A DNA stretch of 64,000 bases, taken from Bartonella tribocorum CIP 105476 (lineage in GTDB: Bacteria > Pseudomonadota > Alphaproteobacteria > Rhizobiales > Rhizobiaceae). This document shows, in pieces, positions 27,488 through 61,949 of the stretch. Under the pieces are notes generated by a model. It was not told where the DNA came from. It saw only the letters and a program-made list of their open reading frames with translations, and ran no database searches. The stretch's first letter is position 1. Each line of letters starts with the position of its first letter. Position numbers and translations under genes: made by a program. The DNA lies in the NCBI RefSeq assembly GCF_000196435.1, contig NC_010161.1:992001-1056000 (forward strand), given 5' to 3'.

Positions 27488-27730
27488 GATTGGGTTCCTA
27501 TGTGCTTAAAGGTTTCTTAGTAGACACCCTAACAGGTGCCGGGTGCTAAGAAACACGGCACATAGCCCGTCGTTATACCTTTCCCAAAAGGGTATTGTAT
27601 AGCATAACCACACCCGACAAGGTCATTATATGTGCGTAGCATATAATGAGTCAAAGCTTTTAATTGGCGGTGAAAAGATTGTTTCGGCAATCTATCCGCT
27701 ATGTGTTTAAGGTGTTTCTTAGGCACCTGA
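27488..27730 (-). promoter_or_regulatory. Structured switch leader, copy 1
   Basis: On the minus strand the word CACATAG occurs at 27699-27705 and again at 27498-27504, next to the AGGAA ribosome binding site of the antirepressor. Its exact complement CTATGTG lies between, at 27559-27565. Inside are GTTTCTTAG/CTAAGAAAC (plus-strand 27546-27554 and 27512-27520), a GGCACC/GGGTGTC hairpin, and a core running from GTCGGGTGT to CGACGG with GTTAT/ATAAC and CCC/GGG pairs. Two other leaders (53175 and 60336) keep the same pairings with different bases. It is probably a translational switch. Confidence 0.8.
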
Positions 27731-28082
27731 TTCGACAATATGCATAACGTCACTGCCTTGTCAAGTGATAAAAACTTTTTTCTAAAAATAATACGCTATT
27801 GTACAGTGTGTATATGAATACACATTAAATTCGTTATTTTTCAATATATTATGTGTACAATGTACAGTCATTTTGAAAATTCTGTCGCTAGCGATAGTTC
27901 GCGCTCGTCCGCCCCGCAACGAAGCCAACCCGCTGGGAAGTACCTTTTGAATTGATTTTATTGACTTTTTTATGGAAAAAACAAAGCATAAATGATGGTC
28001 TTTTTTTTAAATTGCAATAAGAATAGGGAATGCTTAAACTCATAAAGATATGGAATATAGAGATAAAGCTTGAGAACATGAT
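27731..28082. other. Spacer upstream of the copy-1 leader
   Basis: No gene seen. It contains GTGTATATGAATACAC and GTGTACAATGTACAG dyads near 27808-27870, likely promoter or operator elements for the leftward leader, and a short GC-rich patch near 27885-27940. Confidence 0.4.
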
Positions 28083-32039: not shown

Positions 32040-32046
32040 CTATCTC

Positions 32047-40007: not shown

Positions 40008-40019
40008 GAGGAGGCTATC

Positions 40020-40337: not shown

Positions 40338-40348
40338 GGGGATAAATC

Positions 40349-40918: not shown

Positions 40919-40929
40919 CAACACAAACC

Positions 40930-40991
40930 AACTTTTAACACATGCGTGATTCACGCCACGGGTGAATTGCGCTCCAATGGAGGAAAGCAAA
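40930..40991 (+). promoter_or_regulatory. Conserved leader of the recombination genes, copy 1
   Basis: TTTTAACACATGCGTGATTC, then ACGCCACGGGTGAATTGCGC ahead of a GGAGG ribosome binding site. TTCAC/GTGAA can pair around GCCACGG. Closely similar leaders precede recT (45741) and the 44178 gene, so the element goes with the recombination module rather than with one protein. Confidence 0.6.
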
Positions 40992-41813: not shown

Positions 41814-41814
41814 A

Positions 41815-42438: not shown

Positions 42439-42444
42439 AGTTAT

Positions 42445-42472
42445 GGGGGTGCTCTCTCCTCCCAGCACCCCC
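42445..42472 (+). terminator. Strong hairpin after the exonuclease gene
   Basis: GGGGGTGC (42445-42452) and GCACCCCC (42465-42472). The mirrored copy lies at 44256-44293 after the other exonuclease gene. Confidence 0.7.
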
Positions 42473-44255: not shown

Positions 44256-44293
44256 GGGGGTGCTAGGAGGCGTTGGTGAGGATAAGCACCCCC
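44256..44293 (-). terminator. Hairpin after the exonuclease gene (region B)
   Basis: GGGGGTGCT (44256-44264) and AGCACCCCC (44285-44293), directly behind the exonuclease stop. Counterpart of the hairpin at 42445. Confidence 0.65.
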
Positions 44294-44299
44294 ATAGTT

Positions 44300-44923
44300 T
44301 CAAGCGGCTTTTATTGAGATTCTTTGTATCTCTTGTTCTATTTCTGCTAAAAAGGCTTCGACGGCTTGATTAATCTGTTCAATTTGTTTGTCATCACGGT
44401 AGATGCGTTTGATTTTCATACGCAAGTGAGATGAATCCCCCGCAAAACGCGGGTCATAACTGATAAAATCACACCATTTTCGCTCTGTACAAGCCATTTG
44501 GAATTGCATTTGCGCATGATATTCTGGTTTAATTTCATCATCTATACAAAAGCGTAAATGGTTGATTGATTGTGGACATTTGATTTCGATTAAACCGTTT
44601 TCACCAATAAGCCCATCAGGGCTAGCCCCCGCCATTTTGATTGTGGGGTGTTGGATAAAACCACATTGAGTGATTTCTGTATCATAAATGAATGCATATT
44701 CTTTTAGAGCATCTTCTTCATGTTCAATGCCCCATTGCATAGCCGGCGTTGGATAAGATTGGCTTATTTCACCCGTTAAACGCTCTGTCATAAGTTTGAT
44801 TTTGTAATCTTCATATTTGCTTGTAGGAGTTCCCTTTGCTGTTTTACTAATGACGTTATAAACGTTTGAAGCGGTGACTTTACCTAACCGTGCTTGAAAC
44901 CATTGTGCTGTTCTTTGTTCCAT
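44300..44923 (-). CDS. YqaJ-type exonuclease (region B)
   Basis: A 207-aa paralogue of the 41815 protein with the same active-site blocks (RTAQWFQARLGKVTASN, MQWGIEHEEDAL, GASPDGLIGENGLIEIKCPQ, YHAQMQFQMACTERKWCDFISY). ATG 44923 lies one base after the recT stop. Most differences from the region A copy are conservative, so both look functional. Confidence 0.92.
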   Translation of the reverse strand: MEQRTAQWFQARLGKVTASNVYNVISKTAKGTPTSKYEDYKIKLMTERLTGEISQSYPTPAMQWGIEHEEDALKEYAFIYDTEITQCGFIQHPTIKMAGASPDGLIGENGLIEIKCPQSINHLRFCIDDEIKPEYHAQMQFQMACTERKWCDFISYDPRFAGDSSHLRMKIKRIYRDDKQIEQINQAVEAFLAEIEQEIQRISIKAA

Positions 44924-44924
44924 C

Positions 44925-45740
44925 TCACACCGCCGTTTGTTGTTGAGTTGGTGCATATTCGATATCTTGGATATGAATATATTCGGCATCTTGTATAGGC
45001 GCGTCTATTTGCTCTTGTTGCGGGTGAGATTGTAGAGCTCTTTCTCTTTGAATGTTTTTCCTTTTTTCCAAAAGCGCCAAAACCTCTTGTGCTTTTTCAC
45101 AAGACAGATCTGTTAAGTTTTCTACATTTGCGTAAGAAAGAAGATTATTTTCGTTCGTTCCAGTCTCTTTAATTAACTCTTTGATTTGTTCAAGCATGTC
45201 ATAAGAAATGAGTTGTACTGGTGTGGTATTATTAATACGAGCCGCTTCATCTTCTTCATAAATACCGGAAAAACCGAAAGCATAGCGTGCACATTGTATA
45301 GTTGCTTTATGACGTAACATGCGTGCTGGATATTTTCCCCATAGGTCACTGTTTTCTTTTTTACATTCCGATAAATATTCAGTGACCTCGATAGGATCTT
45401 TAATGCCTTTGAGACGAATAGCGCATTTGATAGCAATCAACTTACCGTCTTTATCGAGTTGATCTTGAAAAGTCATGCCATCGAATTGAGAATTAGATTT
45501 GATGATTTTAATCCACCCATCAATAGAGACAACAGGGATAATACCGCCGCCTTTTTTAGGGAATGCATAGATTTCTTTTGTTAATGGGTTTAATCCATAA
45601 GTATTGGCAACAGAGATAAAAGCAGCGAATTCTTCATCAGAGAAGTTATGATTGATACATGTTTTGATAATTGTTTTACGAAATTCATCATGAGAAAACC
45701 CATATTTTTTTGCCATAGTGGCTAATTGTGCATTTGTCAT
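44925..45740 (-). CDS. recT: RecT/Bet-type single-strand annealing protein
   Basis: A 271-aa protein. The Bet core covers about residues 15-185 (EFAAFISVANTYGLNPLTKEIYAFPKKGGGIIPVVSIDGWIKII, ARMLRHKATIQCARYAFGFSGIYEEDEA). The last 80 residues (YANVENLTDLSCEKAQEVLALLEKRK to IEYAPTQQQTAV) match the tail of the ERF protein of region A, although the cores are unrelated. It anneals strands for the exonuclease next to it. Confidence 0.92.
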   Translation of the reverse strand: MTNAQLATMAKKYGFSHDEFRKTIIKTCINHNFSDEEFAAFISVANTYGLNPLTKEIYAFPKKGGGIIPVVSIDGWIKIIKSNSQFDGMTFQDQLDKDGKLIAIKCAIRLKGIKDPIEVTEYLSECKKENSDLWGKYPARMLRHKATIQCARYAFGFSGIYEEDEAARINNTTPVQLISYDMLEQIKELIKETGTNENNLLSYANVENLTDLSCEKAQEVLALLEKRKNIQRERALQSHPQQEQIDAPIQDAEYIHIQDIEYAPTQQQTAV

Positions 45741-45810
45741 TATTGTTTCCTTGATTTGCGCGCAATTCCCCCGTGGCGTGAATCACGCTTGTGTTAAAAG
45801 TTGTTTGGTT
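45741..45810 (-). promoter_or_regulatory. Conserved leader of the recombination genes, copy 2
   Basis: On the minus strand: AACTTTTAACACAAGCGTGA, then TTCACGCCACGGGGGAATTG, ahead of CAAGGAAACAATA and the recT ATG. Almost identical to the leader of erf at 40930 although the genes behind differ. Confidence 0.6.
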
Positions 45811-45816
45811 TGGTTG

Positions 45817-46347
45817 TTAGAAAGGATTGTAATCCTCTGTTGAAGGTTTGCGGTTATCGCCAATCATGGCTAGTCCAGAAAGTTCAAAGTCTCCATAAAC
45901 ATTTACATAACCACAGACCAATACCTTGTCGTAAATTTTTGTATTTCCGTAGATAGATGCACCGCAGCAAGCTTTTGCATTTCCATAAATCTGCGCATTT
46001 TCATAAATCACTGTACCGGAAACACATGCGTTGTCGTAGATACGTGCATTATCGGAAACTTTAGCACCATTGGTAACCTGCGCATTACCAAAAACCTTGG
46101 CATTTTTACTAACTTGCGAGGCAACATCAACTATCGCATTATCACAAACTACAGCATCATCATAAACAGCGGACAAACCACGAACCCAACAATTTCCATT
46201 ATGCGAGAGGTTTCTTTCGTGCTCTACAAAACCACCTAAATCACCAGCCTTTACATCTCCAAAATCTCTCAATGCACGAATGCGATAAGTTAACTTATTT
46301 CCGTATATCCAAGTTGTCTCATCAGTAAGTTCGTATTTTTTTTCCAT
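45817..46347 (-). CDS. Hexapeptide-repeat protein (YdcK-like)
   Basis: A 176-aa member: common N-terminal domain with an IYGNKLTYRIRALRDFGDV variant, then about 17 hexads (AKVFGNAQVTNGAKVSDNARIYDNA). It is the second of two tandem copies, three bases after the upstream gene. It corresponds in place to the 40349 gene of region A. Confidence 0.8.
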   Translation of the reverse strand: MEKKYELTDETTWIYGNKLTYRIRALRDFGDVKAGDLGGFVEHERNLSHNGNCWVRGLSAVYDDAVVCDNAIVDVASQVSKNAKVFGNAQVTNGAKVSDNARIYDNACVSGTVIYENAQIYGNAKACCGASIYGNTKIYDKVLVCGYVNVYGDFELSGLAMIGDNRKPSTEDYNPF

Positions 46348-46350
46348 GGT

Positions 46351-46818
46351 TTATTGCTTCTCACGATCTAAGATCACGGTGGATCCACTAATTTTACAAT
46401 CTCCAGCAATGTCTACACGACAGCGAATATATGCTTGATTATAAATTTTAGCATTTCCGTAAACGTGTACACTCCCCCCTATAACAGAATTTTCATAAAT
46501 CCGTGCATAGCCATAAATTTTGGCATTATCTCTAACAGAAGAACCACCAACTTCGGCATAATCGGAAACTTGTGCATTTTCAGAAACGAGTGCATTCCCA
46601 TAAATCCGCGCATCACCATAAACTTTGGCATTATCATAAACTTGTGCATTGCCAAAAATCCAACAGTCTCCCTTATGGCTTAAGTTGCTCTCTTTTTGTA
46701 TAAAACCACCAAGGTCACCTTTTTTGACATATCCAAAATCTTTTAATGCACGTATGCGGTGTAGAGTATGTCTATTAACTTCGATTGTCTCATCAGTCAG
46801 TTCGTACTTCTTTTCCAT
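46351..46818 (-). CDS. Hexapeptide-repeat protein (YdcK-like)
   Basis: A 155-aa member with the common N-terminal domain (KYELTDETIEVNRHTLHRIRALKDFGYVKKGDLGGFI) and about 14 hexads (AKVYGDARIYGNALVSENAQVSDYA). It lies 14 bp after the antirepressor gene. Confidence 0.8.
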   Translation of the reverse strand: MEKKYELTDETIEVNRHTLHRIRALKDFGYVKKGDLGGFIQKESNLSHKGDCWIFGNAQVYDNAKVYGDARIYGNALVSENAQVSDYAEVGGSSVRDNAKIYGYARIYENSVIGGSVHVYGNAKIYNQAYIRCRVDIAGDCKISGSTVILDREKQ

Positions 46819-46832
46819 GGTTTATTTCCTTA

Positions 46833-47579
46833 TTAATGCATGTTTTGTCGTTTCATTTCTTGAGACAGTACCCCCATGCCTTTTGTGGTAATTTTAGCAG
46901 CTGGTACGACTTTTTCTGTTCCTTCTGTTGTTTGAATGGTGTGTGTAGGACAATCCATAAGACCTTTTTGGATTTTATCTTGATAAGGCAACAAAGGAGC
47001 CCCGAAAGTGCGTCGATACACCCATCCTTTTTTCTGTAGGAACTGAATGAACTGTTTTGGTTGCATTTCGAGAATTTTAGCCGCTTCAGTAAGACCGAAG
47101 AGCCCATCAGAGCGTTGCAAGCTTTCCAAAGCCATTGCTTTTGGTTTTAAATATTCAATGATAGTATCTTGTTGATCTATTTGTCCTTGTAGGTAATTCA
47201 AAAAGCCCATCATAGCTTTTGGACTTGAATAGTCGATTTGTTGTGGTATTGCTGCCTGCTTTGCACGTCGCTCGCATTCGATAAAGTATAAACGAGCTTG
47301 TTTTCCTTTTTCATTACGCTCTACCATGGAAAGTTCTTTTGCCATGTCTAATGTGAGAGCATAATCTTTAGAGGGACGACCACCTTGGAGGTTTTTCCCC
47401 AAATTGGGAAAAACTATATAATCTCTGTTTTCGACAAAATCATATTTGTTAATGCGTTCCATAATCCAGTCTGCAAACTTTTTACCTACTTCTAAAAAGG
47501 CATGCAATTCACGTGCGTTGACTGTTTGAACGCTTTCTTCGTTAATGGTGTTATTTGTAATAGCAATAGGATTATCCAT
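46833..47579 (-). CDS. AntA/AntB-KilAC phage antirepressor (region B)
   Basis: A 248-aa antirepressor: AntA/AntB at about residues 15-110 (VQTVNARELHAFLEVGKKFADWI, ERNEKGKQARLYFIECERR) and KilAC at about 150-245 ([49 protein letters not shown]). The KilAC half is nearly identical to the pseudogene at 39276, whose N-terminal half is Rha instead. This locus has no long switch leader. Confidence 0.88.
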   Translation of the reverse strand: MDNPIAITNNTINEESVQTVNARELHAFLEVGKKFADWIMERINKYDFVENRDYIVFPNLGKNLQGGRPSKDYALTLDMAKELSMVERNEKGKQARLYFIECERRAKQAAIPQQIDYSSPKAMMGFLNYLQGQIDQQDTIIEYLKPKAMALESLQRSDGLFGLTEAAKILEMQPKQFIQFLQKKGWVYRRTFGAPLLPYQDKIQKGLMDCPTHTIQTTEGTEKVVPAAKITTKGMGVLSQEMKRQNMH

Positions 47580-49039: not shown

Positions 49040-49930
49040 ATGATGGCTGTTAAAAAGAAATATGAACTAACAGATGAAACAATTGAAGTTAATGGACGTA
49101 CTTTACACCGTATCCGCGCCTTAAGAGACTTTGGTGATGTAAAAGAAGGTGACCTTGGTGGTTTTATTGAAAAGGAAGGCAATCTATCCCATGATGGTAA
49201 TTGCTGGGTTGATGGAGATGCCAAGGTTTTTGATGATGCTTGTATTTTTGGCAATGCCCATGTTAATGGTTTTTCTCATGTTTTTGACAAAGCGCGTGTT
49301 TATGGCAATGCCCATGTTCTTTTAGCAGCTGCGATTTATGGCAATGCCAAGGTTTATGGTAATGCTATGGTTTTTAGCAATGCCTATGTTTATGGTGATG
49401 CACGTGTTTACGATAATGCTCAAGTTTTCGCTCATACCCATGTTTATGGCAATTCCCATGTTTGTGGTTTTGCCAAGGTTTGTGGTTTTGCCAAGGTGTT
49501 TGGTCATGCCGAGGTTTCTGGTAATGCCAAAATTTATGGAAATGCAAAAGTTTGTGGTAATGAAGATTTTCGCGATAACGACGAAGTTTACATGCGTAAA
49601 CACGTTTCACAGAGCACAAATGAAGCGCATAAGAATGATGACGGCAAGGCGCGTTTAGAGCTTGTACCGCCGTTGGCACTGCTTGAAATCGGTAAAGTAT
49701 TAGATTTTGGAGCCAATAAATACGGCGCAAACAATTGGCGTCATGGCATGGATTGGAGCCGTTTTCACGGTGCAGCTTTGCGTCATTTATTAGCATGGTT
49801 TGGTGGAGAAAGTAAGGATGCTGAGAGTGATTTATCACACTTGGCACATGCGGTTTGTTGCCTTCTTTTCTTAATGGAATGCGAAGCAAAACAGATTGGT
49901 CGTGATGACCGGTTTAAAGAAGAAAAGTAA
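49040..49930 (+). CDS. Hexapeptide-repeat protein fused to a dATP/dGTP diphosphohydrolase-type domain
   Basis: A 296-aa protein. Residues 1-60 are the common domain of the hexapeptide family, and about 60-190 are hexads (YGNAHVLLAAAIYGNAKVYGNA). The last 95 or so residues form a different fold (KARLELVPPLALLEIGKVLDFGANKYGANNWRHGMDW, AALRHLLAWFGGE, LSHLAHAVCCLLFLMECE), which matches the phage dATP/dGTP diphosphohydrolase N-terminal domain (formerly DUF5664), with the metal-binding His/Glu/Asp residues kept. AAGGAGCTT precedes the ATG. It may lower or modify the nucleotide pool. Confidence 0.82.
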   Translation: MMAVKKKYELTDETIEVNGRTLHRIRALRDFGDVKEGDLGGFIEKEGNLSHDGNCWVDGDAKVFDDACIFGNAHVNGFSHVFDKARVYGNAHVLLAAAIYGNAKVYGNAMVFSNAYVYGDARVYDNAQVFAHTHVYGNSHVCGFAKVCGFAKVFGHAEVSGNAKIYGNAKVCGNEDFRDNDEVYMRKHVSQSTNEAHKNDDGKARLELVPPLALLEIGKVLDFGANKYGANNWRHGMDWSRFHGAALRHLLAWFGGESKDAESDLSHLAHAVCCLLFLMECEAKQIGRDDRFKEEK

Positions 49931-50203: not shown

Positions 50204-50680
50204 ATGATTAACACGCTTCTTTGTTTTGATCTAGGCACGAAGACGGGGTGGGCGATACGTGGAGGGGACGATAGTATCATAAGTGGTACGATGAGTTTCC
50301 AACCCCGTCGTTTTGAAGGCGGCGGAATGCGTTATTTACGCTTTAAGCAATGGCTTACAGAAATAAAGCATACAGCCGGTGGCATTGACGCGGTGTATTT
50401 TGAAGAGGTGAGGCGTCATGTTGGAACTGATGCAGCGCATGTTTACGGTGGTTTGTTAGCAACATTAACGGCGTGGTGTGAACATCATCAGATACCGTAT
50501 GAGGGGATACCAGTTAGCACGATTAAGAAAGCGACGACGGGTAAGGGGAATGCGTCGAAAGAAGAGATGATAGAGGCAATGTGTATTAAAGGACACAAGC
50601 CATGTGATGATAATGAAGCAGATGCTTTAGCGATTTTACATTTAGTTAAAGAGAGGGAGATCTCAAATGATGTCCAGTAA
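50204..50680 (+). CDS. Phage RuvC-like Holliday junction nuclease (region B)
   Basis: A 158-aa paralogue of the 35234 protein with the same acidic sites (CFDLGTKTGWA, VYFEEVRRHVG, DDNEADALAIL) and the KKATTGKGNASKEEM loop. Overlaps the next gene by 14 nt. Most of the protein is identical between the copies. Confidence 0.88.
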   Translation: MINTLLCFDLGTKTGWAIRGGDDSIISGTMSFQPRRFEGGGMRYLRFKQWLTEIKHTAGGIDAVYFEEVRRHVGTDAAHVYGGLLATLTAWCEHHQIPYEGIPVSTIKKATTGKGNASKEEMIEAMCIKGHKPCDDNEADALAILHLVKEREISNDVQ

Positions 50681-51044
50681 TAGTAATAAAGTGTCGTTTG
50701 TAAAATTTAGTACAGATCATTTTTTAAAGGATCTTATGGGCTTAAAAGCGACCGAGAAGGCTGTTTATACAACACTTGTGTTGCTAATGAATGATAGGAA
50801 AGCGCCTCTTGTAAATAATGCGTCTTATTTATCGAGTTGGTGTGGGTGTTCAATAAGAACGTTTCAAAAGACATTAGAGACTTTAATAAGCACGGATCAT
50901 ATCACGCGTTTAGAGAATGGTCGCTTATGGCATAAGTCACTAGCCTTTGATTTTGAGACAATAGATAAAGCTTCAAAAAACGCTTCGAAAGCAGCTTTAG
51001 CAAGGTGGAGTAAGAAAAGAGAGGAGGCAATACATGTCAACTAA
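50667..51044 (+). CDS. DUF1376-like protein, short form (region B)
   Basis: A 125-aa winged-helix-like protein (FVKFSTDHFLKDLMGLKATEKAVYTTLVLLMNDRKAPL, LETLISTDHITRLENGRLW). It has the same place as the 34894 gene of region A but is only distantly similar, unlike its conserved neighbours. Overlaps both neighbours by 11-14 nt. Confidence 0.75.
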   Translation: MMSSNSNKVSFVKFSTDHFLKDLMGLKATEKAVYTTLVLLMNDRKAPLVNNASYLSSWCGCSIRTFQKTLETLISTDHITRLENGRLWHKSLAFDFETIDKASKNASKAALARWSKKREEAIHVN

Positions 51045-52122
51045 GTTGCCATGGACGAGGCTTTTTGCAGACAAGTGGCTACTTGATCTTGCACATTTGC
51101 CTTCTTTTGAAGGTTTTATCTATGTGAAGTTGCGATTTCAGATGCTTCGCACTGGTGAACCGCTTACGAATAATTTTCGAGTGTTATCTTTATTGGCTGG
51201 GTGTTCAATTAAAAGATTTCAGAAAGCATTAGATCTTTTATTGGAAACTGGACATATCATTTGTTTAGAAGATGGTCGCTTATGGAATCCAGATGTTGAA
51301 TTAGAATTAAATGATAGCAAAGAAAAATCAGAAGCGGCATCAAAAGCAGCTCATTCTAGATGGCATAAAACAAAAGGTAAAAATGACAATAATCATGTAA
51401 ATGAAACCGCCTATGCGGATTGTATGCAGACCGCATGCGTTTCGCAATGCGACCGCAATGCCATTAACAATAACATTAACATATATAATAAAAAAAATAA
51501 AACTATCGTTTTATCAAAAAAAGAAACTGAATTTGAAGATTTAGAAACAACCGATTTGGTTTACGAACCAATCGAGTGTGATGATGTTGATAGCCAATCA
51601 GAGCTAATCGAAACGATAGAAACAAACCAACCACCCATTCACGAGCAAGAAAGCGTTCCTAAGAAAGCAAAACGAGCGAAAGCTAATCGAGAGTGTCGAT
51701 TGCCTGCTGATTTCGAACCTAATTTGCAATACGCAATCGATCAAGGGTTAACGCATGAGGAAGCGTTATTAGAGTTCGAAAGATTTAAACTTCATTGGCA
51801 AGATAATCCAAATCGAAATGCTAAAAAAAGTGATTGGCAAAAGGCTTGGTACAAGTGGATTACACATCCAGAATATGGACTTTTAGCCAAGAAAAAGGAA
51901 AAGTTAGAAAGGGAAAAACAATATGCAAAACAACGCATTGAAAAAACAGAACAGCAGCGTGGATGGAGTTATCGCGTTGCACAGCACATGTCCAATATTA
52001 AAAATTCAGACAGTGTGTACAAATTTTTATTCGAGGATGATAACCGAACCACCATTCCATTGGAAAACGGGGCAAAAGCCACTGATTGCAGAAGCGGAGA
52101 GGGTTACTTCACTAGTCCATGA
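51034..52122 (+). CDS. DUF1376-like replication protein, long form (region B)
   Basis: A 362-aa paralogue of the 33801 protein: N-terminal winged-helix domain (WTRLFADKWLLDLAHLPSFEGFIYVKLRFQML), Asn/Lys-rich linker, helical block with LPADFEPNLQYAIDQGL and WQKAWYKWI, and a conserved end (HMSNIKNSDSVYKFLFEDD). Its last 200 nt are also read by the next gene in another frame. Confidence 0.8.
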   Translation: MSTKLPWTRLFADKWLLDLAHLPSFEGFIYVKLRFQMLRTGEPLTNNFRVLSLLAGCSIKRFQKALDLLLETGHIICLEDGRLWNPDVELELNDSKEKSEAASKAAHSRWHKTKGKNDNNHVNETAYADCMQTACVSQCDRNAINNNINIYNKKNKTIVLSKKETEFEDLETTDLVYEPIECDDVDSQSELIETIETNQPPIHEQESVPKKAKRAKANRECRLPADFEPNLQYAIDQGLTHEEALLEFERFKLHWQDNPNRNAKKSDWQKAWYKWITHPEYGLLAKKKEKLEREKQYAKQRIEKTEQQRGWSYRVAQHMSNIKNSDSVYKFLFEDDNRTTIPLENGAKATDCRSGEGYFTSP

Positions 52123-52534
52123 TGCGTTGCAAAAGCTTGAGAAAAAAGCAACCGAAGAAGAAATTCAAACAACGTATCTTGTCCTTTCAAACGGACTTAA
52201 GAGCCCCATGGGATCAGATGAGAAAGCGACAGCACTTGCGTATCTCTACACTCTTGAAGGCATAAGCAGCTGGGTATTGCAAGCAGCAACCAAGAACGCT
52301 TTGAAAGGCAAAGCAGAGGGTTTAAACGCAACCTTTATGCCATCAACAGCAGATTTTTATCGCTATTGTGAAAAACTTGAAAGCGATATTCGCTACCAAG
52401 CCAATCGCATTCTTAAGAGCCTTGAAAAGCCAGAGATAAATGCAACGGATCAAAAGCCACCGGTATCATCAGAGCGCATTGAAAAGCTTCAAAGAGAGCT
52501 TGAAGAGGTTTTAAAAGGAATTGAAGATGAATAG
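51923..52534 (+). CDS. Overlapping out-of-frame phage protein (region B)
   Basis: A 203-aa paralogue of the 33389 protein. ATG 51923 has AAAGGG nine bases upstream and lies inside the long DUF1376 gene. Conserved blocks across the overlap (TCPILKIQTVCTNFYSRM, PPFHW) and beyond it (AEAERV, DEKATALAYLYTLEGISSW, GKAEGLNATFMPSTAD). Function unknown. Confidence 0.77.
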   Translation: MQNNALKKQNSSVDGVIALHSTCPILKIQTVCTNFYSRMITEPPFHWKTGQKPLIAEAERVTSLVHDALQKLEKKATEEEIQTTYLVLSNGLKSPMGSDEKATALAYLYTLEGISSWVLQAATKNALKGKAEGLNATFMPSTADFYRYCEKLESDIRYQANRILKSLEKPEINATDQKPPVSSERIEKLQRELEEVLKGIEDE

Positions 52535-52564
52535 CAAAATAGTGAAGTTTGGTATTCATATTGG

Positions 52565-52697
52565 ATTAGATATGCGTTTAAATCGATAAAAAGGTACTGT
52601 ACAGAGCGATTTTAAGATTTTATGATAGAAACCACATTGAAATTAAAAACGCTTCTGTACAGCCCATTTCGAGGTAAATAAACCCATTGGTAAAGTT
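52565..52697 (+). promoter_or_regulatory. Conserved hairpin leader before the 52698 gene
   Basis: Arms CTGTACAGAGCG (52597-52608) and CGCTTCTGTACAG (52650-52662) with the shared ATATGCGTTTAAATCGATAA box upstream and GAGGTAAAT ribosome binding site downstream. Compensatory changes relative to the leader at 33228 support the stem. Confidence 0.6.
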
Positions 52698-53117
52698 ATG
52701 GATTTAAGCAAGGGGATATTAAACCAAATGTTTTTAAAAAAACGTAAACAGCCTATTCAAAAGAAATTTGTTGCAACGGCGGTGGGGCATGCACCATGGG
52801 GATTAGGGGTGGCAGAGTATTTTTACAACCTTTATGAATACGAAGATGGTATGAGAGAATACGAGGAATTCGATGGTGGGCAGTATCAAGAGATGCCTAA
52901 CAAAGTTGATTACAGTACCAAAGCGCAAGTGAAAGCATGGATATACGGAGGTGATTTACCAAAAAGCGTTTTGAGTTGTGAGGCATTGATAGATGAGGTG
53001 AATGCGAAAATTAAAAAACGTACAGTGAAATCAGTGAGAACTTATGATGATATAGACAGTGAACTAGAAAAAGCACTTGGCATTCAATTAGGTATTTATC
53101 AAAATGAAAAAAAGTGA
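52698..53117 (+). CDS. Hypothetical phage protein (paralogue of 32850)
   Basis: A 139-aa protein with a basic start (KKRKQPIQKKF), FVATAVGHAPWGLGVAEYFYNLYEYEDG and YSTKAQVKAWIYGGDLPKSVL. No recognised family. Paralogous to the 32850 gene and in the same order in its operon, directly before a switch leader and an antirepressor. Confidence 0.7.
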   Translation: MDLSKGILNQMFLKKRKQPIQKKFVATAVGHAPWGLGVAEYFYNLYEYEDGMREYEEFDGGQYQEMPNKVDYSTKAQVKAWIYGGDLPKSVLSCEALIDEVNAKIKKRTVKSVRTYDDIDSELEKALGIQLGIYQNEKK

Positions 53118-53174
53118 AAAAAATAAAAAATACGTATTGACTTTAAAGAAAAGGTCGTTTATTAAGGTCGGCAA

Positions 53175-53410
53175 GTGCTGAAAACACTTAACGTTAAGCG
53201 GTTAAACCACGTAAGGTTTCTCCCATTTCTTAAAATACTGGCTTTCTTTTATGCTATCATTGGCATATAACGATTATGTCGGGTGTAGTCGCACCATACA
53301 ATACTCTTTATGAGAAAAGTGTGACGACGGACTTAACGCCGTGTTTTCAACGCCCGGCGCCCTTATAGGGTGTCAATTGAAAACTTCATTACGTTAAGAA
53401 AGAATTTCAA
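53175..53410 (+). promoter_or_regulatory. Structured switch leader, copy 2
   Basis: The word CGTTAAG occurs at 53192-53198 and at 53392-53398, beside the AAGAAAG ribosome binding site; its complement CTTAACG lies at 53332-53338. GTTTTCAA/TTGAAAAC (53343-53350 and 53377-53384) flank a GGCGCCC-TTATA-GGGTGTC hairpin. The core from GTCGGGTGT (53278) to CGACGG has GTCGCAC/GTGTGAC and CTC/GAG pairs. An upstream ATGCTATCATTGGCAT hairpin is shared with the 60336 copy. The leader controls the Rha-type gene. Confidence 0.85.
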
Positions 53411-53926
53411 ATGAACAATTTAGTAACAATCAATAATGGTATTGCTGTCACAACTTCTTTTAAAATTGCTGAGGGAGTGGGTAATACGCATAAAACAGTT
53501 ATACAGTTGGTTCGTAAAAATATTAAAGATTTTGAAGAATTTGGAAGGGTCGCATTTGAAATGCTACCCTTTAAAACGAAGGGTGGAAAACAAAAAAGAG
53601 AAGTTGCTATTCTTAATGAATCGCAAGCAACTTTACTTATGACATATATGCGCAATAATGACACGGTGCGTGCATTTAAAAAGGCGCTTGTCAAAGCTTT
53701 CTATGAATTAAAAAGCCAATCAACAGCTCGTGATTTATTTTCTACGGAGCATGATTTGTTTTCTTATGAAAGTTTAAAGGCTCCTGAGGGAATTGGTAAA
53801 GTTTTGGGAATGATTGCAGCGCGTTTATCGTATGTAAATGATTTACAAAAAGAGCTTGATCATTACAAATTGGTTACAACAGAAGCCAAGCGTGTTTTAA
53901 CAAACGCTGTTGCAAAAGCAGCATAA
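53411..53926 (+). CDS. Rha-family phage antirepressor
   Basis: A 171-aa protein with a Rha domain (residues 1-100: SFKIAEGVGNTHKTVIQLVRKNIKDFEEFG, ILNESQATLLMTYMRNNDTVRAFKKALVKAFYEL). The C-terminal helical part (LGMIAARLSYVNDLQKELDHYK, KRVLTNAVAKAA) resembles the end of the AntA/AntB protein at 32088. Rha proteins interfere with phage growth or repressor function. It starts 12 nt after the switch word of the leader. Confidence 0.85.
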   Translation: MNNLVTINNGIAVTTSFKIAEGVGNTHKTVIQLVRKNIKDFEEFGRVAFEMLPFKTKGGKQKREVAILNESQATLLMTYMRNNDTVRAFKKALVKAFYELKSQSTARDLFSTEHDLFSYESLKAPEGIGKVLGMIAARLSYVNDLQKELDHYKLVTTEAKRVLTNAVAKAA

Positions 53927-54006
53927 AAAAACAGCGGCGGTGCGGGGGCGCCTTCTTTAAACCTCTTATTAAAAATTTATTCAAATGTTAGATTAGGGAG
54001 CTACCT

Positions 54007-54666
54007 ATGACCACTAAAAATGTATCCAAAAAATATGAACTCACAGATGAAAGCATAAAAGGCAATGATAAAGAACTTAAAAGGACTATAACGCTTTATC
54101 GCATACGTGCTTTAAGAGATTTTGCTGATGTCAAGGCTGGGGATCTCGGGGGCTTTATCGAAAAGGAAAAAAACTTAAGTCATGATGGCAATTGCTGGGT
54201 CTATGATGATGCCATGGTCGCTACAGATTCTGTAGTTTCTGACAATGCGCAAGTGCGCAATAATGCACGTGTTTTCAGAAGTGCAAAAGTATCTGATAAT
54301 GCTGTTATTCTGGATAATGCATTGGTTTTTCATAATGCTAGGGTTTTTGAAAATGCAAAAATTTGTGATAACGCCATGGTCAATGGCACTGTTAGTGGCA
54401 ATGCTGTTGTTTGTAATAATGCAAAGCTCTTTTTTATCGCTTTTGTTTCTGATAATGCACAAATTTATGATGATGCTTGTGTGAATGGTGAGGTTTTTGG
54501 CAATGCACGTATTTATGGCAATGCAACGGTTTATAGAAAGCCTCGTACTGATGGGTGGGTTGATCATACATATGTAAACATTTATGGCAATGCCGTTATT
54601 AATGGCAATCAAAAAATTTGTGATGATACTGATGGTAGTGAACAAATTTTAGATAAAACAGCATAA
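54007..54666 (+). CDS. Hexapeptide-repeat protein (YdcK-like)
   Basis: A 219-aa member: common N-terminal domain with an inserted charged stretch (GNDKELKRTI), then about 20 hexads (AQVRNNARVFRSAKVSDNAVILDNA). The GC-rich spacer after the Rha gene and the TTAGGGAGCTACCT ribosome-binding region match those in the 57-60 kb cluster. Confidence 0.82.
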   Translation: MTTKNVSKKYELTDESIKGNDKELKRTITLYRIRALRDFADVKAGDLGGFIEKEKNLSHDGNCWVYDDAMVATDSVVSDNAQVRNNARVFRSAKVSDNAVILDNALVFHNARVFENAKICDNAMVNGTVSGNAVVCNNAKLFFIAFVSDNAQIYDDACVNGEVFGNARIYGNATVYRKPRTDGWVDHTYVNIYGNAVINGNQKICDDTDGSEQILDKTA

Positions 54667-55447
54667 ATAACGGGGCGGGGGGCTTCTTTATAGCAAAAAA
54701 GAAAGCCGTGTCCTTTAAAGACGCGGCTTTTGTTTTCACAGGAAATATATACATCACACTAAATACATATTACACAAAACGTGTAAAAACACAAGCCTTA
54801 ATATATAAAAACCGTATCAAAATGAATTGATACGGCTTTTATTTTCAAAACATCTCATTAGTAAGGAATTTGCTATAAACAAACTAACTAATAAATCACA
54901 TATTTTGTGTATAAACGCAAGTTTATTTTTTCTCAATTTGCATCTTAAAATAGATCATGTTACCATTCATTTGCAACGTTATTATAACGTTGCATGTTAA
55001 CCGTTCCTTAGGTTAAAAAACTTTTTAAGAATCGCTACAAAACAAAGCCGTGTCAATTAATTTGACGCGGTTTTTTTGTGTCTTAACGCTTGTAATTTTC
55101 CACATAATATACTACATATTGTATGACCTGAGAAATTGAAAAGTCGTGAAAGCCTTGTTATGTGTTTACGTAACGGGGCTTTCTTTTATGCTGGGGTTTG
55201 GTTTTCTTTATTCCATTTAAATGCATTAAAGCCGTGCCAATTTCTTGACACGGCTTCTGTTTTACAATGCATGAATGTTGTTTTGTTATTCGAAAGTATA
55301 CGAACATTCCTTTTATTACACAAAACGTATCAAAATGCAATATCAAAACAGCTTTTAAAACTTAATCTTTTATGTGAAAATATCTTTTTTATCAATTGAA
55401 AACATTGTAAAAACACATAAAGTATGTTATGATCTTTATATCATTTA
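54667..55447. repeat. Gene-free stretch with repeated AAAGCCG-type hairpins
   Basis: Five hairpins with related stems: 54702-54730 (AAAGCCGTGTC/GACGCGGCTTT), 54812-54835 (CCGTATCAA/TTGATACGG), 55048-55070 (CCGTGTCAA/TTGACGCGG, then seven T), 55148-55183 (GAAAGCC...GGCTTTC) and 55229-55256 (AAGCCGTG/CACGGCTT). A sixth lies at 57108-57145. A different 9-bp dyad GCAACGTTA/TAACGTTGC is at 54974-54994. Several resemble intrinsic terminators, so an array of small RNAs or stacked terminators is possible. No protein gene seen. Confidence 0.6.
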
Positions 55448-55729
55448 ATGGAACTTACAAATATGCTTAATAAAGTGATTTTAATTGGTCATTTAGGTGC
55501 AAATCCAGAAAGCAAAACAATGTCATCTGGCGCCGAGGTGGTCAATTTTCGTATAGCAACATCCGAAAGCTATACAGATAAGGCTACCAATAAGAAAATA
55601 GACAAAACAGAATGGCATTCCATTGTGGTGTTTAATCCACATCTTGCAAAAATAGCGCTTCAATATCTCAATAAAGGCAGATTCGATATAATATCAAAAA
55701 ATACAATGAAGTCAATAGCTTGTTTGTAA
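55448..55729 (+). pseudogene. ssb: Truncated single-stranded DNA-binding protein
   Basis: The first 77 residues match the 30663 SSB closely ([43 protein letters not shown]). At that point the sequence leaves the family (RFDIISKNTMKSIACL, stop). The second half of the OB fold and the C-terminal tip are missing. It marks the broken outer edge of early region B. Confidence 0.85.
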
Positions 55730-57203: not shown

Positions 57204-57983
57204 TTATTCTGTTTTATCAATAATCTTAACGACATTATCGCTTTGATAAACCTCACAATTTTTGGGAACTAACTTTGCTTTGCTTTTTGTATTGATTGTT
57301 GCATTGCCATAAGCACGCCCCCAGATCGTTGCACAATGTAAGATTTTTGCATTGCCATAGACAGAGCCATAAACCTCACAAGAGCCCCCCACGCGCGCAT
57401 TGCCATAGACCTTGCCATAAATCTTTGCACGACCATTAATCACAGCATAATTATAAATTTTCGCATGGCTATAAATACAAGCAGAGCCACAAACCCTAGC
57501 ATGACCATAGACGCGGGCATAACTAAAAACCGTAGCATCATAAGAAACATGGGCATGGTCATAAATATGAGCATCAGCAAGAACGCGGGCAGCACCACTC
57601 ACATGAGCATTGCCATAAACATTGCCATACACATGAGCACTCCCATAAACACAAGCCTGATCATAAATCTTTGCATATTGAGAGATAAAAGCCTTGCTAT
57701 AGACCTCGGCATTGCCATAAACTAGACCACAGACTTGCGAATAATGCCGTATTTTTGCATCATCATAAACACGGGCATGACCATAGATACAAGCATCATC
57801 ATAGACCCAGCAGTTACCATCATGGGATAGGTTAACTTCCTTTTCGATAAAACCACCTAAAGCACCCGCTTTTATATCATCAAAATCTCTTAAAGCCCGA
57901 ATGCGATAAAGGCTTGTAATATTTCGCGTAAGAGCATGTTTGATTTTTTTGATTTCGCTGGTTAATTCGTATTTTTTGCACAT
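57204..57983 (-). CDS. Hexapeptide-repeat protein, longest helix (YdcK-like)
   Basis: A 259-aa member: common N-terminal domain, then about 27 hexads (AKIYDQACVYGSAHVYGNVYGNAHVSGAARV), the longest run in the window. The repeat DNA is built of 18-bp units such as CATAAACATTGCCATA-like steps, which favour slippage and recombination. Last of four tandem genes sharing the leader at 60336. GAGGGTA precedes the ATG. Confidence 0.85.
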   Translation of the reverse strand: MCKKYELTSEIKKIKHALTRNITSLYRIRALRDFDDIKAGALGGFIEKEVNLSHDGNCWVYDDACIYGHARVYDDAKIRHYSQVCGLVYGNAEVYSKAFISQYAKIYDQACVYGSAHVYGNVYGNAHVSGAARVLADAHIYDHAHVSYDATVFSYARVYGHARVCGSACIYSHAKIYNYAVINGRAKIYGKVYGNARVGGSCEVYGSVYGNAKILHCATIWGRAYGNATINTKSKAKLVPKNCEVYQSDNVVKIIDKTE

Positions 57984-58088
57984 AGGAGTACCCTCACAAT
58001 CTAATGTGATAAACGTTTTCTAAAATTTGAAATGGAAAATTGGATTGGAAAGCAGGCGCCCCCACAACGCCCGCCGCTGCTTTATTGA

Positions 58089-58667
58089 TTAAACCCAGAC
58101 AATTTCTAACTCGCCATAAGGAGAGAGACGTTCAGTATAGGTTTTTATTTTAGTAGAGCCGCCGACATTTTCACGAATAACAGCAATGCCATGGATATGA
58201 GCATTTTCATAAATATGCACGTCATTTGCTATACGCGCGTTTTCATAAACCCTAGCATTGTCATAAATATAGGCATTATCATAGATAATAGCCTTGCCAT
58301 ACACATGAGCATTGCCATAAACACGGGAATTATCAGAAACAACAGCATTGCCATAAACATGCGCATTATCATAAATATAGCCAGCAGCGATAGCATTATC
58401 ATAAACGCGGGCATGACCATAGATATGACCACAAGCGACAGCCTTGCCAAAAACCCTTGCGTTTTCATAAACGTGACCATTTTTAAACACAAGAGCATCA
58501 TCATAAACCCAGCAATTGCCATCATGAGAGAGGTTATCTTCCTTTTCGATAAAGCCCCCCAAGGCACCAGCTTTAACATAAGAAAAGTCTTTTAATGCTT
58601 GGATACGATAAAGGGTATGATTACCAAATACACGCGTTTCATTTGTGAGTGCAAACTTTTTTTGCAT
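58089..58667 (-). CDS. Hexapeptide-repeat protein (YdcK-like)
   Basis: A 192-aa member: common domain (NETRVFGNHTLYRIQALKDFSYV) and about 19 hexads (YGNAVVSDNSRVYGNAHVYGKA). AAGGAA precedes the ATG. Third gene of the cluster. It ends with a short non-repeat tail (ERLSPYGELEIVWV). Confidence 0.85.
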   Translation of the reverse strand: MQKKFALTNETRVFGNHTLYRIQALKDFSYVKAGALGGFIEKEDNLSHDGNCWVYDDALVFKNGHVYENARVFGKAVACGHIYGHARVYDNAIAAGYIYDNAHVYGNAVVSDNSRVYGNAHVYGKAIIYDNAYIYDNARVYENARIANDVHIYENAHIHGIAVIRENVGGSTKIKTYTERLSPYGELEIVWV

Positions 58668-58748
58668 AACACTATTCCTTTATAAAGAAGATTAAATTTT
58701 AAAATGAAATGTTTAAAGAGGGGCGCCCCCGCCGCGCCCGCACGTTAT

Positions 58749-59522
58749 TTACGCAGCGTCTTTTCTAGACTGATTATCATCACAAATATCATTCGTAATT
58801 TTTTCACGGCTATTAACCACGGCATTACCATAGATTTGTACATCATGATCAATATTGGATTTACCATAGACCTTTGCATTTTCATAAATTCTTGCAAAGG
58901 ACCCCACCCGAGCCGAGCCAGAAACCTTTGCATCATCAAAAATACTTGCAAAACTCTTAATCCAAGCATTACAAAAGACATGGGCATTGCCATAAATACA
59001 CGCCCCCCCATAAATGCGTGATTTACCATAAACATGGGAATTCCCATAAACAAAGCCACTCACATGAGCATTTTCATATACACGGGCATTATCATAAATA
59101 TGTGCACTAGGAGAAACATTAGCATTATCACAAACCATGGCATTGCCATAAACTAGACCACAGATCCTAGCATTGTTACTAATTTTTGCATTGTCATAAA
59201 TGCTAGCATCATGACCGAATACCCATGCCTTATCACAAACCACAGCATTCCCATAAACTTTAGCTTCCCTAGCAATAATGGCATCATGATGTATTTTTGC
59301 ATTTTCAGAAACGACGGCATTGCAAAAAACGGTAGCATTATCGTAAACCCAGCAATTCCCATCATGAGAGAGATTGCTTTCATTTTCAATAAAACCACCT
59401 AATGCCCCCGCCTTAACATCATCAAAATCTCTTAAAGCACGAATGCGGTGTACAGTAATCCCTTCAAAAGTATGATTTTCATTAGTCAATTCATATTTTT
59501 TAGATACAGTTATAGTGGACAT
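58749..59522 (-). CDS. Hexapeptide-repeat protein (YdcK-like)
   Basis: A 257-aa member: common domain, about 27 hexads with slight irregularities (AKIHHDAIIAREAKVYGNAVVCDKA), and a hydrophilic end. TTAGGGAG lies before the ATG. The GC-rich spacer with GGGCGCGGCGGGGGCGCCC that precedes it is repeated after neighbouring members. Confidence 0.85.
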   Translation of the reverse strand: MSTITVSKKYELTNENHTFEGITVHRIRALRDFDDVKAGALGGFIENESNLSHDGNCWVYDNATVFCNAVVSENAKIHHDAIIAREAKVYGNAVVCDKAWVFGHDASIYDNAKISNNARICGLVYGNAMVCDNANVSPSAHIYDNARVYENAHVSGFVYGNSHVYGKSRIYGGACIYGNAHVFCNAWIKSFASIFDDAKVSGSARVGSFARIYENAKVYGKSNIDHDVQIYGNAVVNSREKITNDICDDNQSRKDAA

Positions 59523-59603
59523 AGGTAACTCCCTAAGTTTATATTTGATAAATTTTAGAATGAGTTGTTTAAAAGGGGCGCCCCCGCCGCGCCCGCGCGT
59601 TAT

Positions 59604-60335
59604 TTACGCAGCATCATTTTCATATTCGCTATCATCGTCATAATACCATTCACAATCAGCATAATACTCATGACGGTAATAATCATCTTCACTTCCAAAT
59701 TCTGGATATGCCTCATCCCAAATATGATCATCAGCAGTTAAAGAGGCAGCGCTATGAACATAAGAATCGCCAGAGATAAGAGCCCCACAAACCACAGCAT
59801 CATCAAAAACACGCGAGCCATCACAAATATGAGCAGCGCCGCTTATTTTAGCATTGCCCCCGACATGAGCATCATCACAAATAACGGCATCATCACAAAT
59901 ATGAGCATGATTAGTGACGCGGGCGTTATCATAAATTTTAGCATTACCTTCAATTACAACGGCATTGCTAACATGAGCATTGCCATAAAGCTTTGCATTG
60001 TCCTTTAATAACATGCCTTCAAAAATAGCATTACCATAAATTCTTGCATTACCACAAACATCAACAAAAAAGCTTTTTACTTTAGCATTGCCTGAAACCC
60101 TTGCATTTTGAAAGACGCGCGCTTTGTCATACACCCAGCAATTGCCTTTGTGAGATAAGTTACTTTCGTTTTCAATATACCCCCCAAGATCGCCCGCTTT
60201 GACATCACCAAAATCTCTTAAAGCACGTATACGGTATAATATGAGACCAGTCACAAAATCCATTTCGCCAGTAAACTCATATTTTTTAGATGTTTTTTTC
60301 TTATTAACGGGGGTAATTTTTGATATATTTTTCAT
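59604..60335 (-). CDS. Hexapeptide-repeat protein with acidic aromatic tail
   Basis: A 243-aa member and first gene of the four-gene cluster. After the common domain and about 20 hexads (AKIYDNARVTNHAHICDDAVICDDA) it has a tail of about 40 residues very rich in Asp, Glu and Tyr (EDDYYRHEYYADCEWYYDDD). The tail is unique in the window and suggests binding to a basic partner or a DNA-mimic surface. Its start lies directly behind a switch leader. Confidence 0.85.
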   Translation of the reverse strand: MKNISKITPVNKKKTSKKYEFTGEMDFVTGLILYRIRALRDFGDVKAGDLGGYIENESNLSHKGNCWVYDKARVFQNARVSGNAKVKSFFVDVCGNARIYGNAIFEGMLLKDNAKLYGNAHVSNAVVIEGNAKIYDNARVTNHAHICDDAVICDDAHVGGNAKISGAAHICDGSRVFDDAVVCGALISGDSYVHSAASLTADDHIWDEAYPEFGSEDDYYRHEYYADCEWYYDDDSEYENDAA

Positions 60336-60580
60336 AATTAAAGCCTTGATGTTAATATTGTTTTGAAATTGACACCCTATAAGGGTGTCGGGCGTTCAAA
60401 ACACGGCATCAAGTCCGTCGTTACACTTTTCTCATAAAGAGTATTGTATGGTGTAACCACACCCGACATAATCGTTATATGCTAATGTTAGCATAAAAGA
60501 AAGCCAGTATTTTAAGAAATGGGAAAGGTTGTTTCGTAACCTACCCGCTTGATGTTTAAGTGTTTTGATCACTTGATTAT
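60336..60580 (-). promoter_or_regulatory. Structured switch leader, copy 3
   Basis: On the minus strand the word CATCAAG occurs at plus-strand 60548-60554 and 60345-60351 (next to the AAGG ribosome binding site), with its complement CTTGATG at 60407-60413. GTTTTGAA/TTCAAAAC (60395-60402 and 60360-60367) flank a perfect GACACCC-TTATA-GGGTGTC hairpin. The core has GTTACAC/GTGTAAC and CTC/GAG pairs. It is highly similar to copy 2 but controls a hexapeptide gene instead of an antirepressor. Confidence 0.85.
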
Positions 60581-61949
60581 TTATATAACAAAATACGTAT
60601 TTATTGTCAAATAATATTCTATCTTTTTTGATATTTTTTTGTATTTTTTTAGATACGTTGTGTATTGATAATATCTTATGCTTCTGAATTGCTTCTTTTA
60701 TATTTATGTGCTTTTAAAGCTATATTATGGGCTTTCTGAAATGATTGAGTTATGTTTTGAATCTATACATTTATAATATTTAGAAACGCTCTTATAATGC
60801 GTATTTTTATCTTTATAACCTATCAATTTTTTCACTAAATGAATTTTAATTTTTTTGTGAATTTCTTTTATAACGCATTTGCAACTTAACAGCTTTTTAT
60901 AGGGACCGTCTTTATAATCAATGATTTCATTTGCATTATGATTGTAAAACCTTCTTTATAACTGTTATCTGTTTTATAGCCATCGCATCATTTTTCATTT
61001 TCATAAGAGAAACAATAAATAGGATAATTGCGATTTATAGACTGTTATGAAAATATCTAAAGAGAGATTGATAATTATAGAGATTAGAAAAATCCCTTTT
61101 AATAGGCTTTTGTCAGTTGTGTCAGTTTTGTCAGTTCTTTTTAGACCCTCTATTATTTTTTTAAATGAGAAAAATTAAAAACATTATATATCAATATGTT
61201 AATATCTTTAAAACATAACTCATATCAAGAGTACAATCTTTAAAGATAACCCATGATGTGAATTGATTAAAACCTGTCAGTTATGTGTCAGTAAATTGAA
61301 CCGACAAATTAGATTATTTTAGTAAGTCATTAAAACGTGTCTTATGAAAAGTGTATGACCTTTTAAAACCTTTCAAAAGATAGCTTGTAACTCATAAGAG
61401 ATGCTATCAAGATCATTAGGTTATGAGTTTTGACGGGGTTTTGAGTTTTGAGGGTTGCTGCTATTATGTAAAAAAACGATAAAAATAAAAACATTATATT
61501 TCAATGGATTAATATTTTATAGACCTTAAAAAAACAACTCATATTGATAATACAACCTCTAAATTCAACCAATAATATACGTTTTGAGGGGGTTTTGACG
61601 GTTTTTACACCTTCAAAACCTATAAGTAATATAAGAAAATGAATATACATAACTCTCTTTAAACAAAGCTTTTGAAAACAATAAAGCACTCATTTTAGAT
61701 TACGGTATAATCTCTTAAAGGCAATGTAAAAAAATCTAATTTTATTTAAGATGGGGTTTCTTAAAAGTCTTAAAGCAATCCAAAGTAGAGTATCTAAAAG
61801 TGCAAATGATTTCTTTTTAGAATAACGCATATAAACACTCCTTTTAAAGATTAGATGTAAGCAATTTATAAAGGGGGTATAGATTATGGTTATAAGCTCT
61901 ATACCCCTTATGCGTTTATCATACCCATTATGTGAGCATGCTTTATAAG
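60581..61949. other. Gene-free spacer with a diverged direct repeat
   Basis: About 1.37 kb with no supportable gene. Two related blocks of about 90 bp (near 61165-61255 and 61475-61570) share AAAAACATTATAT, TTAATAT and ACAACTCATAT-like steps. Each lies near a GTCAGTT or GGGTTTTGA-rich stretch. The left end should hold the promoter of the leader at 60336. Confidence 0.45.

Follow-up and report, generated by a model that had tools for sequence, protein, structure and literature searches.

The window considered here is a stretch of 64,000 nucleotides from the genome of Bartonella tribocorum CIP 105476 (contig NC_010161.1, positions 992,001 to 1,056,000). Three leaders are found in it, preceding genes that start with ATG at positions 53411, 60335, and 27487 (leaders 1, 2, and 3, respectively). 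Each has the same organization. In order, there is a promoter-like site, two short words that we call a1 and b1, a structured core, second copies of the words (a2 and b2), and the ATG. The complements of both words, named a' and b', are within the core. The coordinates of these features are listed in Table 1. Note that the order of elements, and the position of b2 at the ribosome binding site (RBS), are read directly from the DNA.

The original prediction was that a word is present twice in each leader, with its complement in between. This is the case for all three leaders, and the last copy of the word overlaps the Shine-Dalgarno sequence in each. A pair of sequences listed in the same prediction as a covarying helix (GTTTTCAA and TTGAAAAC) proved to be the second word pair, likewise with an upstream and a downstream copy. 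Two further proposed helices, GTCGCAC/GTGTGAC and CTC/GAG, correspond to the P2 stem of the core and do covary. The count of four leaders was too high; the covariance model built here identifies only three cores in the window (E up to 10). One hairpin, between the core and target of leader 1, was considered as an intrinsic terminator and dropped, having no U tract. Leader 3 has a promoter-like pair immediately ahead of its core; leaders 1 and 2 have none at that place. Separately, the window contains long inverted duplications (30895-35710 with 50217-55677, and 39587-42453 with 44285-47253). The arms are 231-689 nt in length and 71-84% complementary, which suggests several prophage blocks that are related and lie in opposite orientations.

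Table 1. Positions of leader elements and target genes in the window.
Leader	Feature	Position	Strand	Details
1	Predicted promoter, upstream of first words	53137..53165	+	TTGACT-17-TATTAA
1	a1 word	53179..53185	+	TGAAAAC
1	b1 word	53192..53198	+	CGTTAAG; first word of the original prediction
1	Antisense core (putative)	53278..53358	+	Predicted three-way junction P1/P2/P3; RF02221-like, 45.5 bits; covariation
1	b' antisense word	53332..53338	+	CTTAACG; middle word of the original prediction; P3 loop; complements b1 and b2
1	a' antisense word	53343..53349	+	GTTTTCA; strand joining P3 to P1; complements a1 and a2
1	Hairpin between core and target	53356..53374	+	GGGTGTC hairpin of the original prediction; foot overlaps P1 stem by 3 nt
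1	a2 word	53378..53384	+	TGAAAAC
1	b2 word at RBS	53392..53398	+	CGTTAAG
1	Target gene, phage regulatory protein Rha family, 171 aa	53411..53926	+	PF09669, 6.4e-18
2	Predicted promoter, upstream of first words	60582..60610	-	
2	a1 word	60562..60568	-	
2	b1 word	60548..60554	-	CATCAAG
2	Antisense core (putative)	60387..60467	-	b' 60407-60413, a' 60396-60402; RF02221, 50.9 bits
2	a2 word	60360..60366	-	
2	b2 word at RBS	60345..60351	-	CATCAAG
2	Target gene, YdcK-type beta-solenoid protein, 243 aa	59604..60335	-	PF18836, 2.1e-12
3	Predicted promoter, upstream of first words	27735..27764	-	
3	a1 word	27714..27721	-	TAAGAAAC
3	b1 word	27699..27705	-	CACATAG
3	Second predicted promoter, directly before core	27625..27654	-	TTGACT-18-TATAAT
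3	Antisense core (putative)	27538..27618	-	b' 27559-27565, a' 27547-27554; RF02221, 47.1 bits
3	a2 word	27512..27519	-	TAAGAAAC
3	b2 word at RBS	27498..27504	-	CACATAG
3	Target gene, AntA/AntB antirepressor with KilAC domain, 237 aa	26774..27487	-	PF08346, 7.1e-25; PF03374, 1.6e-9

For the core of leader 1, the predicted fold is a three-way junction (fold z of -2.87) that places b' in a hairpin loop and a' in a junction strand. We took one leader per combination of loop and a' (90, from 140 with an ATG) and built a model, R1, from 50 of the 90. In the covariation analysis of 50 sequences, 99.5% of helix cells are paired and 8 of the 23 core pairs have double changes. None of 500 shuffles scored as high, although the measure is inflated by related sequences, as the tool itself warns. 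The core resembles Rfam family RF02221, also known as sRNA-Xcc1. In particular, it has the three-way junction with a AUACAAUAC...GRGRAA internal loop in P2. Matches to the three window cores have E values from 7.9e-5 to 4.1e-6, with scores below the gathering threshold of 53 bits. Two other cores of the B. tribocorum genome pass the threshold (55.2 and 53.9 bits). Genome-wide, our own model identifies 24 cores (E up to 1), one of them on a 23-kb contig, and RF02221 also lists 24 (E up to 10). The 23-kb contig includes a 1-kb piece that is 100% identical to a B. tribocorum plasmid.

Matches to RF02221 extend well beyond this species. At least 50 of 71 Bartonella genomes have one (at least 38 over gathering), as do at least 55 of 398 sampled Pseudomonadota genomes, B. 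tribocorum included (at least 40 over gathering). These counts are lower bounds, because filters were strict and the number of candidates scored per genome was capped; with the same filters, and at most 52 candidates scored per genome, 21 of the 71 Bartonella genomes had no match at E up to 0.001. Since the core is close to RF02221, and RF02221 is spread across the phylum, the core is not restricted to Bartonella. The original suggestion of a genus-specific family is not supported. In extracts of PMC2996969, RACE mapping in Xanthomonas campestris identified the core as a discrete RNA of 88 nt, and clusters of RF02221 copies are tabulated for Xylella in the available part of PMC12189769.

We next consider how widely the words are matched. 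We parsed 143 distinct Bartonella-type leaders from 109 loci. Note that "Bartonella-type" is assigned by sequence pattern, and some of the loci are from viral contigs of unknown host. The set of core patterns retained 186 of 254 distinct matches, with an exact closing stem of at least 6, and some chance matches remain; counts from these collection-wide scans are minimum values rather than frequencies. A complement of b' is present downstream in 128 of the 143 leaders, compared to a mean of 6.5 when loops and strands were redealt among leaders, and upstream in 127 (shuffled mean 7.6). The maximum for b, in 1000 shuffles, was 16 in each direction. Hence, the words covary in further homologues, as originally proposed. 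For a', complements are found downstream in 124 leaders (30.9 by shuffling) and upstream in 126 (24.8 by shuffling), and 104 of the 143 leaders have all four matches. Using a single leader for each distinct b word, matches occur in 37 of 39 cases downstream and in 33 of 39 upstream; shuffling gives about 1. The RBS-side b word is absent from 15 of the 143 leaders, and the upstream b word from 16.

The variable bases of the leaders are the words themselves. Among Bartonella-type leaders there are 39 b words, 10 a words (including length variants), and 88 two-part combinations. Because a has only 10 variants, some of which differ in length, evidence for the a word is weaker than that for the b word. 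The earlier statement that all seven bases of the b word may change was too broad. Five of the seven positions vary across the 39 distinct words, the first being only C or T, and positions 6 and 7 are always AG; the three words on which the statement was based differ at just four positions. The placement of the words is also regular. Of 103 leaders with all four matches, 92 have b2 ending 8-10 nt before the ATG, and 97 have CGG after b1. In 71 of 103 leaders, the end of a promoter-like pair is some 135 nt ahead of ATACAATA, all within one 5-nt bin, and a further such pair is directly before the core in 74 of 103 leaders and in one of the three window leaders. For 72 leaders, selected for perfect words, we also ranked predicted duplexes; the leader's own target was first of 72 in 69 cases.

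In some leaders (L009, L016, L045, L113, L159, L180, L197, and L233) the upstream words belong to another address than the core and target. These natural mosaics look, from their sequences, as if recombined within the non-coding part. Alternatively, the words might be DNA-level repeats that serve recombination or inversion, with no pairing of RNA. The words do form inverted and direct repeats in DNA, and the mosaics suggest that recombination occurs, but stems P1, P2, and P3 covary as RNA and b2 keeps its distance to the ATG, as described above. Furthermore, 7-8 nt is short for a recombination site. We find this explanation scarcely credible.

The genes behind the leaders are of a limited number of types. 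For Bartonella, 97 of 98 target proteins were used for alignment. Among these 97, AntA is found in 53, KilAC in 34, Rha in 19, and the YdcK solenoid in 20, with overlap between families. The 20 YdcK solenoid targets are not antirepressors according to Pfam. Outside Bartonella, 96 next genes include 13 with Bro-N, 10 with KilA-N, 9 with P22_AR_N, 5 with Rha, 2 with AntA, and 1 with SymE; an antirepressor-type family of Pfam is matched by at most 39 of the 96. Of single anti-repressor PHROGs, the commonest is matched by 72 of the 97 Bartonella targets and by 28 of the 96 others. Genes for YdcK-type beta-solenoid proteins, with an 18-nt repeat period, are numerous in the window (57204-60335, 46400-46760, 49050-49580, and 54040-54520). 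One of them, with its ATG at 60335, is behind a leader.

The same rule is apparent outside Bartonella. The test set comprised 97 distinct units, of 111 matches, with a reading frame behind, and includes some chance pattern matches. At a score of at least 7, complementarity of the P3 loop (b') to the RBS stretch of the gene that follows is present in 57 of the 97 units, compared to 1.0% when partners are swapped, and complementarity to an upstream site in 63 (4.5% swapped). For a', complements are in the region between core and start in 30 units (6.1% swapped) and upstream in 43 (12.1% swapped). An earlier, laxer test gave 65 of 97, compared to 11% swapped. The joint duplex energy separates own from swapped partners modestly, with 21 of 97 below the 5th percentile. 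Individual phages provide examples. In Aaphi23, the order is q, leader, ant, and the leader scores 86.1 bits with RF02221. Our script lists b' as CTGTTTG, with CAAACAG at -220 and -17, and a' as TTTCGA, with TCGAAA at -231 and -27. Escherichia phage Rac-SA53 has a match of 78.1 bits directly before a gene annotated ant, and Acinetobacter phage 4316 has one of 79.7 bits directly before a KilA-N gene. The script found no core in the latter two phages, its pattern being too strict; the word pairs were read by eye and, for phage 4316, b2 extends over 6 bases only.

These data bear on the published role of sRNA-Xcc1. In extracts of PMC12444791 and PMC12189769 it is described as trans-acting and controlled by HrpG/HrpX, which would fit a general regulator of chromosomal or virulence genes, beside which the neighbouring gene is incidental. 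That the loop complements the next RBS so often, in units outside Bartonella and in Bartonella-type leaders alike, argues against this, as does the match of most Bartonella neighbour genes to one anti-repressor PHROG. We consider such a role very unlikely to explain the leaders. By covariance model, the core of the window leaders resembles that of sRNA-Xcc1, with scores under the threshold. However, sRNA-Xcc1 was published as a free, virulence-linked sRNA, whereas the window leaders appear, from word complementarity, to be antisense to the neighbouring gene. We did not find an antisense relation of sRNA-Xcc1 to its neighbour in the extracts of the literature examined. Similarly, no paper joining sRNA-Xcc1 with an antirepressor was among the matches listed, in partial texts, for spellings without a hyphen. 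One vesicle paper has sRNA-Xcc1 and prophage together, with one mention of each, and the link may already exist in further literature.

A known system of comparable layout is the C4 RNA of phages P1 and P7 (RF01695; a1b1 site RF03163). The annotation of the P1 record has the order promoters, a1, b1, C4 RNA, a2, b2, icd, ant1. Hence, C4 and the leaders share the order a1-b1-RNA-a2-b2-first gene, the gene being that of an antirepressor operon for C4. P1 C4 folds as a three-way junction. By complementarity to the annotated a2 and b2, its P3 loop contains b', and the strand between P3 and P1 contains a'. Three stems, a b' loop facing the RBS, and an a' facing the sequence just upstream are likewise predicted for the window leaders. 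As in C4, there is an a1-b1 copy upstream of the RNA in most leaders (b in 127 and a in 126 of 143). The target of C4 is an antirepressor and, in the window, the targets are one AntA-KilAC, one Rha, and one YdcK protein. C4 is released from its leader by RNase P and acts in trans. There are also differences. RF02221-type cores have a conserved ATACAATAC/GGGGAA internal loop in P2, and P1 C4 has no such loop. Unlike C4, many Bartonella leaders have a promoter-like site between b1 and the core. The C4 model RF01695 has no match in the window between 53000 and 53600 (E up to 10), and the RF02221 model has none in the c4 region of P1. Since neither model matches the other system, we do not file the leaders as C4, although they would work like C4. 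The likeness is therefore one of layout and fold, with no claim of common descent.

According to the available part of PMC5320573, b' of C4 covers the RBS and a' provides specificity. Because the window cores are arranged alike, we consider it likely that each leader controls a phage antirepressor-type gene by means of a C4-type antisense RNA. Most likely, each is able to silence its own gene and spare genes with another address. The best reading of the window leaders is a C4-type variant that has so far been filed as a free sRNA. Briefly, the core would fold alone, or be released from the leader, and then pair through b' and a' with a2-b2, so blocking translation in cis or in trans. The upstream a1-b1 would compete for the same antisense words. 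In a transcript that carries a1-b1, pairing of these with b'-a' would leave the RBS open (ON); in a transcript that starts at the core, or with free core RNA, the RBS would be closed (OFF). The b and a words together would thus be an address, deciding which gene an RNA can silence. We infer that such pairing, release with action in trans, and switching off by a1-b1 take place in the cell.

The original prediction included two exclusive folds, one hiding the start. As predicted pairings, both are apparent. When the transcript includes the upstream word, folding predictions for the 72 leaders with perfect words have b' paired with b1 in 66 cases (P>0.5) and the RBS word mostly unpaired in 58. 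Conversely, in transcripts that start at the core, b' is predicted to pair with the RBS word in 42 of 72 leaders, and the RBS word is open in 15. Considering every leader whose RBS word is matched, the mean predicted pairing between b' and the RBS in the long form is 0.42 for 11 natural leaders with a mismatched b1, compared to 0.07 for 117 with a matched b1. This support is partial, because 5 of the 11 show almost no RBS pairing. The two-transcript part of the proposal is drawn from consensus matches, since a terminator seldom follows b1 in Bartonella, where there is instead a promoter-like pair before the core. A terminator-like site between b1 and the core is found in 4 of 72 Bartonella leaders, and a terminator at this place was accordingly dropped for the window. 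Outside Bartonella, such a site occurs in 70 of 95 units; two control stretches gave 15 and 8 of 95, and mononucleotide shuffles gave 19.1.

Such folds need not involve a free RNA. In a purely cis-acting switch (a riboswitch, thermometer, or attenuator) the middle word would flip upon a signal, and any free antisense RNA would be irrelevant. The long and the short transcript are indeed predicted to fold differently, as this requires, and the upstream word is kept in most Bartonella-type leaders. However, the core is a self-contained three-way junction, conserved across the phylum, and has been mapped as a discrete RNA in Xanthomonas (PMC2996969, in part). Furthermore, some cores have no gene behind them, only the apparent promoter of the next leader. 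A purely cis-acting switch is hence not the likeliest reading, and we regard it as unlikely.

Other known systems are comparable in part. At the IsrK-AnrP locus of Gifsy-1, extracts of PMC4825925 describe a short upstream RNA, separated by a terminator from a read-through mRNA, with two alternative folds and control of antirepressor translation. A difference is that, in the same extracts, activation at IsrK-AnrP (RF01394) is reported to occur through a 45-codon upstream reading frame. Among the systems that we met, IsrK-AnrP is the nearest experimental precedent for the opening of an antirepressor message by an upstream RNA. Outside Bartonella, the terminator-like site after a1-b1 could, by the same analogy with IsrK, generate a short decoy RNA or an attenuator. 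The Rfam isrK model has a weak match to the a1b1 region of P1 (L324:3231-3312; 35.1 bits, gathering 50), a hint that isrK may be the same type of element as the a1b1 regions of C4 systems. The immunity RNA CI of satellite phage P4 is a leader RNA that pairs with target copies before and after itself, and acts through premature termination of transcription. The likeness to the leaders is only an analogy, in the target copy on either side of the RNA; the premature termination is a point of difference.

Some units have no matching target beside them. In B. tribocorum, the core loops of L010 and L024 do not match the RBS of the next gene, and exact patterns identified no matching target for either address in the genome. 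In other Bartonella genomes, the L010 address is present in complete gene-coupled units of two (G005 and G027) and the L024 address in those of three (G023, G025, and G067). Three more pattern matches for these addresses (L349, L355, and L356) were discarded, since the parsing script does not classify them as leaders. Overall, of 15 units without a b2 of their own, 9 have the address of some gene-coupled unit found elsewhere in the set. With no chance expectation for this number, it is only suggestive of action in trans, and we set orphans aside as proof. For orphans of two genomes, G016 and G065, nothing was returned by the pattern search beyond the a1-b1 of the orphan itself and a match within its core. 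In Xanthomonas, three units (L118, L131, and L155), of which two are nearly identical, have kept a1-b1-CGG and a terminator-like hairpin. There is no a2-b2 before their next gene, save for a 7-mer inside a reading frame. They cannot serve as proof of a downstream target and are, from their sequences, apparently orphan antisense units. The cores that are followed by no gene, and then by the apparent promoter of the next leader (L139, L249, L046, L034, and L292), form tandem units.

Units without a matching target might be immunity RNAs against incoming elements; this is the weakest step of our proposal. More speculatively, and with a probability well short of even, RF02221 RNAs could be a second widespread class of antirepressor antisense RNAs, with a two-part address code that diversifies fast, allowing many elements to occupy one genome with no cross-silencing, and in which target-less units persist as RNA immunity against phages with that address. 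Many genomes carry an annotated sRNA-Xcc1, and a role for it in virulence or vesicles is discussed in extracts of sources that include PMC12444791 and PMC12189769. If it is mainly the antisense switch of a neighbouring antirepressor-type gene, those readings would need revision, and a regulator, together with the site on which it acts, would be predicted for many prophage genes. With so many natural addresses, simple reporters would allow direct tests of antisense specificity, of prophage cross-talk within a cell, and of superinfection immunity based on RNA.

A possible relation to Brt was raised in the original prediction. In extracts of PMC5387305, nine Brt RNAs of Bartonella henselae, 194-203 nt long, precede genes for XRE-HTH proteins of 108-152 aa, and 33-34 copies are counted in B. 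tribocorum. Like the window leaders, Brt RNAs are multicopy elements of Bartonella found before a gene for a DNA-binding protein. They are unlike them in length and in the type of gene. The window targets are Rha, YdcK solenoid, and AntA proteins. XRE-HTH genes are elsewhere in B. tribocorum, many in tandem (contig C2, 2.14-2.16 and 2.335-2.343 Mb), behind conserved, GC-rich leaders of about 194-203 nt with a sequence unlike that of the window leaders. Hence, we rejected the window leaders as Brt. The core covariance model has no match at the Brt-like leader sites of B. tribocorum. Note that the contig C2 leaders are called Brt-like from gene and length only. The Brt-like leaders are at 2140915-2156030 and 2335210-2343008 of contig C2 (L363, L365, L366, L368-L374, L377, L379-L381, and L384). 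By eye, GATTCAAAAAC and GTTTTTGA, and also AATCCGAG and CTCGGATT, look complementary in L366, with other letters in L371. From their sequences, the Brt-like leaders look like a second candidate for covariation.
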